Of a stretch of DNA of 64,000 nucleotides, positions 27,677-33,943 are shown piece after piece. Under the pieces are notes generated by a model. The model worked only from the letters and a program-made list of their open reading frames with translations. It was not told the origin of the DNA and ran no database searches. Within the stretch, counting starts at the first letter, position 1; each line of letters begins with the position of its first letter. The stretch spans positions 962,011 through 1,026,010 of the forward strand of contig NZ_KB910516.1 in NCBI RefSeq assembly GCF_000372825.1, read 5' to 3'. The DNA is from Methylobacterium sp. 77 (GTDB taxonomy: Bacteria; Pseudomonadota; Alphaproteobacteria; Rhizobiales; Beijerinckiaceae). Both the position numbers and the translations under genes were made by a program.

Positions 27677-27925
27677 GTCGATCTGCGCTCTCCTTTGCTG
27701 CTCTTCACCTCATTCTTGATCCACGCGGAAGAAGAACTCGTTCGCCGGTCGATGATCAAAGCTTTCGTGGCAGCATTCTCAGGCGGCCATGGTCGGCACG
27801 CAACGAGGGACGTGTCGTCCGCAAGTGAGTTGAGGATGGGATACTGTCCTGCAATATCACACCTTCGCATCCGCAAAATCATGTGATAATTCCGCCCGGC
27901 TGACTCAACTTTAGGAGGTTTACGC

Positions 27926-28336
27926 ATGATCGCTCGCTCCAAACTCCCCCTTCTCCTTGCCATCGCCGCTCTGGCCGCTCCCATCGCCATCACCTCGCCT
28001 GCCTCCGCCAAGGGCAACAAGGTCATCTCGATGATCGACACCGACAATGACGGCACGATCGACCTCAAGGAAGTCCTGGCCGTCGCCGGCGCCAAGTTCG
28101 ACGCCCTCGAAGGCGACAAGGACGGCACCCTCGACGCCAAGGAGCTGAAGGGCCGCGGTGGCAAGAAGGCGATCGCGGAAGCCGATCCGGACAAGGACGG
28201 CACCCTCGACAAGAAAGAGTACCTCGCCCTCGTCGAGTCCCGCTTCAAGGCGGCGGATCCCGACAACGACGGCACCCTCGATGCCGCCGAGTTGAAGACC
28301 CCCGCCGGCAAGGCCCTGGTCAAGCTGATCAAGTAA
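27926..28336 (+). CDS. Lanmodulin-like EF-hand protein (lanthanide binding)
   Basis: This 136-residue periplasmic protein has a signal peptide cleaved near SPASA-KG (about residue 28) and four EF-hand loops at 38-49, 62-73, 87-98 and 111-122, separated by 12, 13 and 12 residues. This very short spacing, the Pro at loop position 2 (DPDKDGTLDKKE, DPDNDGTLDAAE), the LDAKELKG and LDKKEYLA segments and the end PAGKALVKLIK match lanmodulin, the selective lanthanide-binding protein of Methylobacterium. Loop 1 is DTDNDGTIDLKE (no Pro) and loop 2 is EGDKDGTLDAKE (Glu first, Gly second), so it differs from the AM1 protein as I recall it. AGGAGG sits 7 bases before ATG 27926. A strong terminator follows, so it is monocistronic. 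Confidence 0.88.
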   Translation: MIARSKLPLLLAIAALAAPIAITSPASAKGNKVISMIDTDNDGTIDLKEVLAVAGAKFDALEGDKDGTLDAKELKGRGGKKAIAEADPDKDGTLDKKEYLALVESRFKAADPDNDGTLDAAELKTPAGKALVKLIK

Positions 28337-28394: not shown

Positions 28395-28430
28395 AGCCCC
28401 CATGCACCAGCGCGCATGGGGGCTATTTTT
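28395..28430 (+). terminator. Intrinsic terminator after the lanmodulin-like gene
   Basis: A perfect 11-bp stem, AGCCCCCATGC pairing with GCATGGGGGCT across a 7-base loop, is followed by ATTTTTAT. This is the clearest Rho-independent terminator in the window, 58 bp after the stop codon. Confidence 0.9.
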
Positions 28431-28482: not shown

Positions 28483-30111
28483 TCAGAAAACGTGGCGTAG
28501 CAGAAAGAAGAGGCTCCCCGCGAGCGTGATCGCTGCCGGCAGCGTCAGGACCCATGCGAGCGCCATGTTCCGGATCGTCGAGACCTGCAGGCCCGATCCG
28601 TTGGCCGCCATGGTACCGGCGACACCGCTCGACAGGATATGCGTCGTCGAGACCGGCAGCCCGTAGAGTTCGGCGAGGCCGATCGTGCCTGCGGCCACCA
28701 TCTCGGCGGAGCCCCCTTGAGCGTAGGTGAGATGCGTCTTGCCGATCTTCTCGCCCACGGTGACCACGATGCGCTTCCAACCGACCATCGTGCCGAGGCC
28801 GAGTGCCAGGGCGACCGCGACCTTCACCCAGGTCGGGATATAGCGGGTGCCGTCGTTGAGGAGGCCGGAATAGGCCTTCAGGGTCTTGGTTTCCTCCACC
28901 GACAGGCTCGCACCGGCATCGCGCAGCAGGCGGATCGCATCGGAGGCGAGGTACATGTCGTTGCGCAGGTTCGGCGTCGCTGCCGCCGGCACCTGACGGA
29001 TCGCGCCATGCTTCTGGACCGAGGACGCAATATCGTCGGAGAGCGAGGCGAGCGCGGCATAGACCTGAGGCTGGTTCAGGTCCTTGGTGCGCAAGGCCTC
29101 GGCGACCTGAATGCGGGCGGAAGCGGGCTCGGGCAATCCCCGCCCGTCGGCGTGGGCCTGAAACACGGCGCTGGCCCCGTGAGATTGCTCCACGAAGACC
29201 GGGGTCATGTCGTCCGACATGGTGCGGTTGAGGGCGTAGGCGGTCGGCGCTGCGCCGATGAGAATGAGCATGATGAGCCCCATGCCCTTCTGCCCGTCAT
29301 TGCCGCCGTGGAAGAACGATACGAGGGTGCAGGTGGAGATCAGCACGCCACGGATCCAGAGAGGGGGAGGGGTCTCGCCCTTGGGCGCCTCGTAGAGATC
29401 CTTGCGTTTGATCAGGGCCTTCATGGCGAGGAGCAGCCCCGCCGCCATCACGAAGCCGAGGACCGGTGAGATCAGCAAACCCTGAAGCACCTTGAAGGCC
29501 TGCGACCACTCAACGCCCGACGTACCGTGGCCATCCGAGGCCATGAGCTGATTGGCGAGACCGACGCCGATCACCGAGCCGATGAGGGCGTGCGAGGAGG
29601 AATTCGGCAGGCCGAGCGCCCAGGTGCCGAGGTTCCACAAAATCGCGGCGATGAGGAGCGAGAAGATCATCGCATACCCCGCCCCAGAGCCGACCTGAAG
29701 GATCAACTCCACGGGAAGGAGGGTGACGATGGCATAGGCGACCGCGCCGGAAGACAGCATGACGCCGAGGAAGTTGAAGAAGCCGGACCAGACCACCGCC
29801 GCGAGCGGCGGCATGGAGTGGGTATAGATCACGGTCGCCACGGCATTGGCGGTATCGTGGAAGCCGTTCACGAATTCGAAGGCGAGGGCGATCAGCAGCG
29901 CCAGCGCCAGAAGGGCGAAGGCACCGATGGCCAGAGGCGTTTCGCCGACGGCGTTCATATCCTGGATCAGGCTGAACAGGGCGTAGGCGAGACCCGCCAC
30001 GAGGACCGCCAGAAATGCGATGACGCCACCGGAATGGACCCCATGGTCGAGACGCGGTCCCGGGCGGGCATCGGCCGCCGGCAAGGCTTGTGTTGAAAGA
30101 GAATCGGACAT
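28483..30111 (-). CDS. Inorganic phosphate transporter, PiT family
   Basis: This 542-residue inner-membrane symporter of the PiT family takes up phosphate (often as metal phosphate) with protons. Family signatures occur in both halves: EFVNGFHDTANAVATVIYTHSM near residue 78, PNSSSHALIGSVIGVG near 170, HGGNDGQKGMGLIML near 262, and GLPVSTTHILSSGVAGTMAANG near the end. A long cytoplasmic loop (about 295-400, with helical QVYAALASLSDDIASSV) divides the two halves, as in the larger PitA proteins. About ten helices are visible. It converges on the lanmodulin-like gene. No phoU-like gene is adjacent. Confidence 0.93.
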   Translation of the reverse strand: MSDSLSTQALPAADARPGPRLDHGVHSGGVIAFLAVLVAGLAYALFSLIQDMNAVGETPLAIGAFALLALALLIALAFEFVNGFHDTANAVATVIYTHSMPPLAAVVWSGFFNFLGVMLSSGAVAYAIVTLLPVELILQVGSGAGYAMIFSLLIAAILWNLGTWALGLPNSSSHALIGSVIGVGLANQLMASDGHGTSGVEWSQAFKVLQGLLISPVLGFVMAAGLLLAMKALIKRKDLYEAPKGETPPPLWIRGVLISTCTLVSFFHGGNDGQKGMGLIMLILIGAAPTAYALNRTMSDDMTPVFVEQSHGASAVFQAHADGRGLPEPASARIQVAEALRTKDLNQPQVYAALASLSDDIASSVQKHGAIRQVPAAATPNLRNDMYLASDAIRLLRDAGASLSVEETKTLKAYSGLLNDGTRYIPTWVKVAVALALGLGTMVGWKRIVVTVGEKIGKTHLTYAQGGSAEMVAAGTIGLAELYGLPVSTTHILSSGVAGTMAANGSGLQVSTIRNMALAWVLTLPAAITLAGSLFFLLRHVF

Positions 30112-31847: not shown

Positions 31848-33173
31848 TTAGCTCAGCGTGGCATCGGTGGGCCCGTTTCCGGCCAGCACCCGATGGGCCC
31901 TTTCGCGGTCGAGATCCCCCTCCCAGGCGGCGACCACGACGGTGGCGACGCAATTGCCGACGAGGTTGCCGACCGCGCGAGCCATGCCGACGAACCAATC
32001 CACCGACAGGACCAGGACGAGGCCGATCGCCGGAATGCTCGGCACCGCATTGAGGGTCGCGGCCAGGATCACGATGGCCGAGCCCGGCACGCCGTGGGCG
32101 CCCTTAGAGGTGACGAGTGAGATGCCGAGCACCAGCAGGAGGTCGCCGAAGCTCAGCGGCGTGTTCGTCGCCTGCGCGATGAAGACCACGGCGAGGGTGA
32201 GATAGATCGAGAAGGCGTCGAGGTTGAAGGAATAGCCGGTGGGCACCACGAGGCCGACGACCGAATCCTTGACGCCGAGATGCTCGAGCTTGCGCATGAT
32301 CTGCGGCAGCACCGCATCGGAGGAGGCCGTCGCCAGGACGATGGTCAGCTCCTCGCGTAGATAAGCGAGGAATTTGAAGATGTTGATCCCGACCAGCGCC
32401 ATCACGCCACCGAGCACGACCACGACGAAGAAGAAGACCGCCACGTAGAACAAGGCGACGAGCGACACGAGTTGCTGCAGCGAACCGATTCCGTAGCGAC
32501 CCACCGTGTAGGCGACGGCGCCGAGGACGCCGAGGGGCGCCAGCCGCACGATGAGCCCCATCGCCTTGAACAGGACGGTGGAGAGAGCCTCGATCAGACC
32601 GGTGACGCGGGCACCCGCCTCTCCGCCGACAAGAGCCAGGCTGATGCCGAAGATGATGGCGAAGAACAGCACTTGGAGGACGTCGTTGCGGGCCAGCGCA
32701 TCGAAGGAGGTGGTGGGTATGATGTTGAGGATGAAGCTGGAGAGGCCGCCGCCCTGGAGCTTGTGCGCGTTCTCAGCGTAGGTGTTGAGCGCCTTCGGAT
32801 CGAGAGTCGAGGTATCGATGTTCATGCCGTGGCCGGGGCCGAACAGGTAGGCCAGAATCAGACCGAGGGCCAAGGCCACCGTGGTCATGACCTCGAAATA
32901 GACCAGCGCCTTCACCCCGACCCGGCCGACCTTCTTGAGGTCGCCCGCTCCGGCGATTCCGTGGACGACGACACAGAAGACGATCGGCGCCACGATCATC
33001 GAGATCAGCTTGAGAAAGCCGTCGCTGAACACCTTCAGGCCTTGGGCGAAGCCGGGGGCGACCATGCCGAGGACGATACCGAGGATCAGCGCCACGACCA
33101 CCTGGAAGAACAGCGATGTGTAGAGCGGCGCGCGGGTCGCGGGGACCGCAGTGGAGAAGGCGGCAGTCGACAT
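31848..33173 (-). CDS. dctA: C4-dicarboxylate/proton symporter
   Basis: This 441-residue inner-membrane transporter of the DAACS family takes up succinate, fumarate and malate with protons or sodium. Diagnostic segments are LGMVAPGFAQGLKVFSDGFLKLI, the helical hairpin SSDAVLPQIMRKLEHLGV (serine-rich family motif), GLVVPTGYSFNLDAFSIYLT and SKGAHGVPGSAIVIL, all in the expected order. ATG 33173 gives the normal length; the frame is open upstream but without family similarity. The stop lies in a segment that by chance resembles a tRNA 5' end. Methylotrophs use DctA for growth on multicarbon acids. No dctBD genes are adjacent. Confidence 0.94.
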   Translation of the reverse strand: MSTAAFSTAVPATRAPLYTSLFFQVVVALILGIVLGMVAPGFAQGLKVFSDGFLKLISMIVAPIVFCVVVHGIAGAGDLKKVGRVGVKALVYFEVMTTVALALGLILAYLFGPGHGMNIDTSTLDPKALNTYAENAHKLQGGGLSSFILNIIPTTSFDALARNDVLQVLFFAIIFGISLALVGGEAGARVTGLIEALSTVLFKAMGLIVRLAPLGVLGAVAYTVGRYGIGSLQQLVSLVALFYVAVFFFVVVVLGGVMALVGINIFKFLAYLREELTIVLATASSDAVLPQIMRKLEHLGVKDSVVGLVVPTGYSFNLDAFSIYLTLAVVFIAQATNTPLSFGDLLLVLGISLVTSKGAHGVPGSAIVILAATLNAVPSIPAIGLVLVLSVDWFVGMARAVGNLVGNCVATVVVAAWEGDLDRERAHRVLAGNGPTDATLS

Positions 33174-33376
33174 TGGTTCGGTCCACGCACGAGATCGGAG
33201 GTCGCAGCAAGGGCCGTGCCGATCAAAACCGGTTGCCGTCCGGGCTCGGCCGACACACATGGCTACCGACCCGAAGGCGAAGGCGACCTCGCCCATGCGA
33301 TCTTCGTCGGCAACGGTCGGCCGGGATTTCCCCTGTAGAGCTCCACAATCGCCCCGGCGTGGAGAGGAGAAACGCC

Positions 33377-33943
33377 ATGAGACGATTCCTGTCGGTCCTC
33401 GCCCTGGTGGGCGGCGTCGCACCCGCCCTCGCACAGGCCCCGACTGCTGCGCCACCGGCTCCTGCGGCAGCCGCACCCGCGACTTCGGCCGCTCCGCAGA
33501 CCTACGAGAGCAAGGTCGTCAACGGGAAGGGTGAACCGATCGGAACGATCGCCATCCGCGATGGGGCGAGCGCGTTGGTGCTGCGTCTGGCAATCCAACC
33601 CGGCGGCCTGCCCCCGGGCTGGCACGGCATCCACTTCCACGCCGTGGCCGATTGCTCGGACATGGAAAAGTTCGAGAAGTCGAAGGCCCACGTGAACCAC
33701 GACCAGAGCAAGCACGGCCTGCTCAACCCGGAAGGTCCCGACGAAGGCGACCTGCCGAACGTCTATGCCAATGCGGACGGTTCGGTGAATGCGGAAGTGT
33801 CGAGCGAGACGCCGCTCACGGGGGAGGGCGGATTGAAGGATGCCGACGGATCGGCCCTGATCATCCACGCCAATGCGGACGACCATACCAGCCAGCCCAT
33901 CGGCGGTGCGGGTGCCCGGATCGCCTGCTCGGTGATCAAGTAA
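33377..33943 (+). CDS. sodC: Periplasmic Cu,Zn superoxide dismutase with altered zinc ligand
   Basis: The 188-residue protein has a signal peptide cleaved near ALAQA (residue 20), an Ala/Pro-rich linker (about 20-40) and a Cu,Zn-SOD domain. It would convert periplasmic superoxide to peroxide. Copper ligands are His86, His88, bridging His105 and His164. Zinc ligands are His105, His113 and Asp125, but the residue matching bovine His80 is Asp122 (GPDEGDLPN in place of GPHxGDLPN). The structural Cys pair is probably Cys93 and Cys184 (ACSVIK). ATG 33377 has GGAGAGGAG 6-8 bases upstream. It is divergent from dctA with about 200 bp between. The missing zinc His may change metal affinity. Confidence 0.92.
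   Translation: MRRFLSVLALVGGVAPALAQAPTAAPPAPAAAAPATSAAPQTYESKVVNGKGEPIGTIAIRDGASALVLRLAIQPGGLPPGWHGIHFHAVADCSDMEKFEKSKAHVNHDQSKHGLLNPEGPDEGDLPNVYANADGSVNAEVSSETPLTGEGGLKDADGSALIIHANADDHTSQPIGGAGARIACSVIK

Follow-up and report, generated by a model that had tools for sequence, protein, structure and literature searches.

A predicted lanmodulin of Methylobacterium sp. 77 with the EF-hand loop type usual in its genus

Lanmodulin (LanM) is characterized by low-picomolar lanthanide binding, ~10^8 selectivity over Ca, disorder-to-order folding and periplasmic export (PMC10232371). The protein of Methylorubrum extorquens carries Pro at position 2 of all four EF-hand loops, with EF4 as the weak site, and in known LanM structures the paired loops are EF1 with EF4 and EF2 with EF3 (PMC10232371). 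LanMs from three species have position-2 Pro in three, two and one of the four loops, that of M. aquaticum 22A (Maq22A_c02050) having two of four (PMC12603986, 2025), and replacement of Pro by Ala in M. extorquens LanM lowered selectivity for lanthanides over Ca while lanthanide affinity was kept (earlier work cited in PMC12603986). 22A LanM carries T and K as the second residues of EF1 and EF2, within loops of the motif D(orE)xDxDxxxxxxE; the purified protein bound 3.65 mol La per mol (inductively coupled plasma mass spectrometry after gel filtration), La made it more compact, Ca did so to a lesser degree for the His-tagged form, and the lanM transcript rose 10.3-fold with La by quantitative PCR (PMC9260416). 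Here we compare with these proteins a lanM gene of Methylobacterium sp. 77, which lies in a stretch of 64,000 nucleotides (the window; contig NZ_KB910516.1, positions 962,011 to 1,026,010 of the forward strand).

The open reading frame opens with ATG and closes with TAA, and its coding features are as follows.

27926..28336, + strand: lanM, lanmodulin, 136 amino acids
27926..28009, + strand: putative signal peptide, residues 1-28, cut likely after ...SPASA (by-eye reading)
28037..28072, + strand: EF1 loop DTDNDGTIDLKE, Thr at position 2, residues 38-49
28109..28144, + strand: EF2 loop EGDKDGTLDAKE, Glu at position 1 and Gly at position 2, residues 62-73
28184..28219, + strand: EF3 loop DPDKDGTLDKKE, Pro at position 2, residues 87-98
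28256..28291, + strand: EF4 loop DPDNDGTLDAAE, Pro at position 2, residues 111-122

A sequence-only reading of this DNA had described four EF loops with 12-13-12 spacing, a LanM-like end, Pro at position 2 of loops 3 and 4, Thr in loop 1 and a Glu-Gly start of loop 2. The translation bears out each of these residues, the loops are separated by 12, 13 and 12 residues, and the protein end (...AGKALVKLIK) aligns without gaps with that of M. extorquens (...AGSALVNLIR); the picture of M. extorquens LanM given there, with Pro in all four loops and a weak EF4, also agrees with PMC10232371. The putative signal peptide shows, by eye, a charged start, a hydrophobic core and an A-x-A motif, and all but one of residues 1-29 have a predicted local distance difference test score below 50 in the predicted structure model.

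Judged by its sequence, the window protein is a true LanM, and an ordinary orthologue of the LanM type found most often among the matches read in the genus. It scores 173.3 bits against the curated NCBIfam equivalog for LanM, NF053806 (cut-off 135; E 2.3e-51, far beyond chance), and in a sequence search LanM ranks first at 131.2 bits, compared with 33.1 bits for the best calmodulin. LanM also comes first among the chains compared with the predicted fold (VIA-align, 50 rows, limited to the chains that Foldseek ranks highest); the Ancylobacter structure 9PI2 falls outside these rows, which has no bearing on its fold. The alignment check that the sequence-only reading had proposed thus does not place the protein closer to calcium EF-hand proteins. 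Several hallmarks of LanM are evident: four EF-hand motifs in a protein of fewer than 200 amino acids, 12-13 residues between adjacent EF hands, position-2 Pro in one or more of them (here EF3 and EF4) and, in the model, a three-helix bundle with metal sites on its rim. The ~25 residues that separate calmodulin-type EF hands are not seen, and the best sequence match is LanM instead of calmodulins.

Among described proteins, that of 22A resembles the window protein in its Thr at EF1 position 2, a residue other than Pro at EF2 position 2, two Pro loops of four, a similar length (134 amino acids) and a lanM gene outside the lut cluster; it differs in having Lys where the window protein has Gly at EF2 position 2, and its gene has other neighbours (purine biosynthesis, a hemolysin, an adenylate cyclase and mucR). 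The window protein shares 64% identity over 123 aligned positions with the LanM of the M. aquaticum type strain (L044). In contrast to the window protein, the M. extorquens protein (Mex-LanM; PDB 6MI5, 8FNS) has Pro at position 2 throughout, Asp at EF2 position 1 and Asn at EF4 position 1. Hans-LanM (PDB 8DQ2) and the LanM of Ancylobacter lacus (PDB 9PI2) differ in another way: their EF1-EF3 loops begin with Asn and have Glu as the ninth residue, position-2 Pro is confined to EF2, and a fully supported long branch splits them from the other 82 tree rows.

The loops that had seemed exceptional prove to be common. A first comparison comprised 84 rows, namely 80 loci of the 295 encoding a relative, the window and three PDB chains; EF1 starts with DT in 62 of these rows and EF2 with Glu in 58. 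Glu occupies EF2 position 1 in 55 of 60 loci labelled Methylobacterium, and all six Methylorubrum loci have DP at both EF1 and EF2. Because the 80 loci were chosen by likeness to the query, a second, less biased set was made by searching 111 genomes of the genus, including species named Methylorubrum, with NF053806. Matches above the cut-off occur in 110 of the 111 genomes and total 183, of which the 150 listed were all read; the 33 weaker, unlisted matches could shift the following numbers, above all those per genome. Among the 150 listed matches, 105 have Thr at position 2 of EF1, 44 have Pro and one has Ile; EF2 opens with Glu in 107 and with Asp in 43, and its second residue is most often Lys (77), followed by Pro (41), Ser (13), Thr (11), Gly (7) and Ala (1). 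Position-2 Pro is found in EF3 and EF4 only in 91, in all four loops in 37 and in EF4 only in 12, the rest having it in EF1+3+4 (6), EF2+3+4 (3) or EF1+2+4 (1). By genome, 70 of the 109 with a listed match have only the type with a non-Pro EF1 and a Glu EF2, 20 have only DP/DP and 13 have both; the remaining 6 show other mixes. An EF2 that opens with Glu-Gly is rarer (7 of 150), occurring in seven genomes including that of the window, with cores 95 to 100% identical to the query; one of the seven (G051) has a second, unlisted LanM match. The loop changes in EF1 and EF2 are therefore the usual Methylobacterium form, and the protein is not divergent. Of the sequence-only description, a divergent lanmodulin with altered EF1 and EF2, the family name stands, and the words divergent and altered are unsupported in view of these counts for EF1 Thr and EF2 Glu and of the published binding of La by 22A LanM, whose EF1 and EF2 have T and K as their second residues (PMC9260416). 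As separate observations, many genomes of the genus have two to four LanM matches, and G040, 99% complete, is the only one of the 111 without any.

The genome that contains the window is a single contig of 4.66 Mb, and the nearest relatives of its LanM agree with a placement in Methylobacterium. The sequence-only reading had suggested looking there for a second, orthodox lanM; none was found (one match at E <= 0.001, three candidates scored). The genome's two XoxF-type dehydrogenases read WDYD where the metal ligand lies and its single MxaF-type enzyme reads WDYA, motifs that we take to mark the two types. Homologues of all seven lut genes tested (lutA, B, D, E, F, G and H; 69 to 86% identical) form one cluster at about 1,062,857-1,071,196, ~73 kb from lanM; the gene names are assigned from the order of the cluster, read on Methylorubrum aminovorans locus L078. 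All seven adjoin lanM in three of six Methylorubrum loci (L058, L077, L078), and, within the DNA compared, a LutH-like receptor of 29 to 42% identity is present in five other loci of the 80 (L055, L057, L064, L080, L082). An apparent internal TAG in LutH was the open reading frame's own stop, as the match overran it by six codons; we therefore rejected a broken LutH, and the frame (L090:10636-13197, 853 amino acids) is whole. A second LutH-like TonB receptor (G000:C1:2857542-2860004, L088) is 41% identical to M. aminovorans LutH. Aerobactin-like chelator genes (IucA/IucC, PF04183) have no match in the genome, other kinds of chelator gene not having been sought. As a side observation, the two XoxF-type genes (G000:C1:1211154-1212776, L002, and 2817353-2818921, L003) share 91 to 100% DNA identity per 100 columns over columns 300-1099 and only 62 to 89% over columns 1100-1899, which looks like gene conversion.

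Three other explanations of the window protein were weighed. It could be a calmodulin-like calcium EF-hand protein that merely resembles LanM: Pfam detects generic EF-hand families only, and Lys, less often Thr, is common at position 2 of calmodulin-type loops (PMC12603986). However, the equivalog score, the 12-13-12 spacing, the two Pro-2 loops, the first place of LanM by both sequence and fold, and the XoxF-type and lut genes in the same genome make this very improbable, and we rejected it on the equivalog score and the two rankings. We consider a decaying or non-functional copy just as improbable. The distance from the lut cluster and two nearby transporter genes missing from the relatives examined would fit such a copy, but the frame is intact, loops and ligands are conserved, and this is the sole LanM match of the genome. 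Moreover, the loops are near-identical in relatives: the window lanM differs from that of L007, L008 and L009 by 13, 15 and 14 amino acids (1, 0 and 1 within loops) and by silent changes in 16, 17 and 22 codons (3, 3 and 5 within loops).

A third explanation accepts the protein as a LanM with a changed order of metal binding, in which EF2 (Glu1-Gly2) would be weak, EF3 with EF1 or EF4 tight, and the preference for light or heavy lanthanides unlike that of M. extorquens; as a whole we regard this as doubtful, although a binding order or preference unlike M. extorquens, as the sequence-only reading had suggested, is in itself possible. In La-bound Hans-LanM the residue at position 1 coordinates the metal (PMC10232371), and Glu at that position coincides with the absence of Pro at position 2 of EF2, which none of the 107 Glu-1 loops and 41 of the 43 Asp-1 loops among the listed matches possess. 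On the tree (103 columns; 19 of 77 inner branches open; root placed on the Hans and Ancylobacter chains), EF2 Glu changed four times and EF2 Pro twice, with three independent pairs on well-supported branches; these events are too few for a sign test, and we therefore make no statistical claim for the coupling. Nearly all remaining EF2 ligands are kept in the 107 Glu-1 rows (D3 in 107, D5 in 107, D9 in 105 with Thr in the other 2, and E12 in 107), which argues against decay of the EF2 site; from these residues, EF2 is probably still a metal site. In addition, the 3.65 La on 22A LanM implies that most sites fill, though at high La (PMC9260416). No measurement on a Glu-Gly EF2 was found in the open-licence literature searched.

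Very probably, then, the gene encodes the single lanmodulin of a Methylobacterium with lanthanide-dependent methanol dehydrogenases, a protein of the genus-usual loop type that is predicted to be exported and to bind lanthanides. The putative signal peptide would direct it to the periplasm. By comparison with the 22A and M. extorquens proteins, the apo form would be largely unfolded, would fold and compact on lanthanide, and would take about three to four ions in its EF loops. It probably buffers lanthanides, or moves them from uptake by LutH and its partners to XoxF enzymes or to excretion. Given the EF1-EF4 and EF2-EF3 pairing and Pro-2 in EF3 and EF4, each pair contains exactly one Pro loop. 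Lacking Pro-2, EF1 and EF2 probably tell lanthanides from Ca less sharply, by analogy with the published Pro-to-Ala result; lanthanide affinity is expected to be kept high, Ca rejection to be somewhat below that of M. extorquens LanM, and EF2 to be the site most likely changed.

Several points weigh against this account. Lanmodulin function is read here from sequence and a predicted model, and that model was built metal-free and has no bearing on affinity. Glu at position 1 of an EF-hand loop is unusual and could weaken EF2. Since lanM does not lie beside lut, a working link between them is drawn by analogy. The T and K of 22A LanM are taken from PMC9260416, although they agree with the type-strain locus L044. 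Deletion of lanM in 22A left methanol growth unimpaired (PMC9260416), which leaves the shuttle role of LanM unsettled in general.

The value of the census is that in most of the 150 listed matches neither EF1 nor EF2 has Pro-2 and EF2 opens with Glu, and that the detailed affinities in the literature searched concern the all-Pro protein of M. extorquens and Hans-LanM. Natural pairs of both types, some within one genome, offer a ready comparison for the effects of Pro-2 and position 1 on lanthanide choice and calcium rejection, and the remaining value of the window protein is as such a natural counterpart to the all-Pro form. More speculatively, and in our view rather unlikely as a whole, the textbook M. 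extorquens LanM may be the less usual one in the genus, the common type having in each pair one loop with Pro-2 and one lacking it, Glu in place of the Asp-Pro start of EF2, a weak site shifted to EF2 as a result, another loading order and softer discrimination between lanthanides and Ca, such that the 13 of 109 genomes with both types (among listed matches) may divide the work between them.

Three features flank the coding sequence.

27864..27888, + strand: TTCGCATCYGCRAARNCRTGTGATA, a conserved block 5' of lanM that may be a promoter or control site
27913..27918, + strand: Shine-Dalgarno-like AGGAGG, read in the sequence
28395..28424, + strand: terminator-like hairpin and T run 3' of lanM (11 pairs, 8 G-C, then ATTTTT)

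The exact TTCGCATCYGCRAARNCRTGTGATA pattern occurs in 4 of the 91 loci compared (L001, the window's own, and L007, L008 and L009), always upstream of lanM, and part of the DNA further upstream is less conserved across these four; a sigma-70 scan gave no promoter-like site at 27864-27888. AGGAG is common to the window and all three aligned relatives, the sixth base of AGGAGG varying. The hairpin count (1) is no higher than in shuffled sequence (mean 0.9).

Gene order around lanM is stable. The series PAS - TPR - GT61 - lanM - a 235-residue protein without a Pfam match - sodC - dxs recurs in all five close relatives examined, which are five of the six other Glu-Gly genomes (G008 was left out). 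With the order otherwise the same, the window has two extra genes relative to all five, a PHO4-family phosphate transporter (28483-30111) and a dicarboxylate symporter (31848-33380). A functional link between lanM and the phosphate transporter is unsupported, the latter being found in none of the five relatives and, within the DNA compared, in none of the 80 loci at 40% identity and half its length. Matches to the symporter in the relatives number only two, both short and antisense to sodC.
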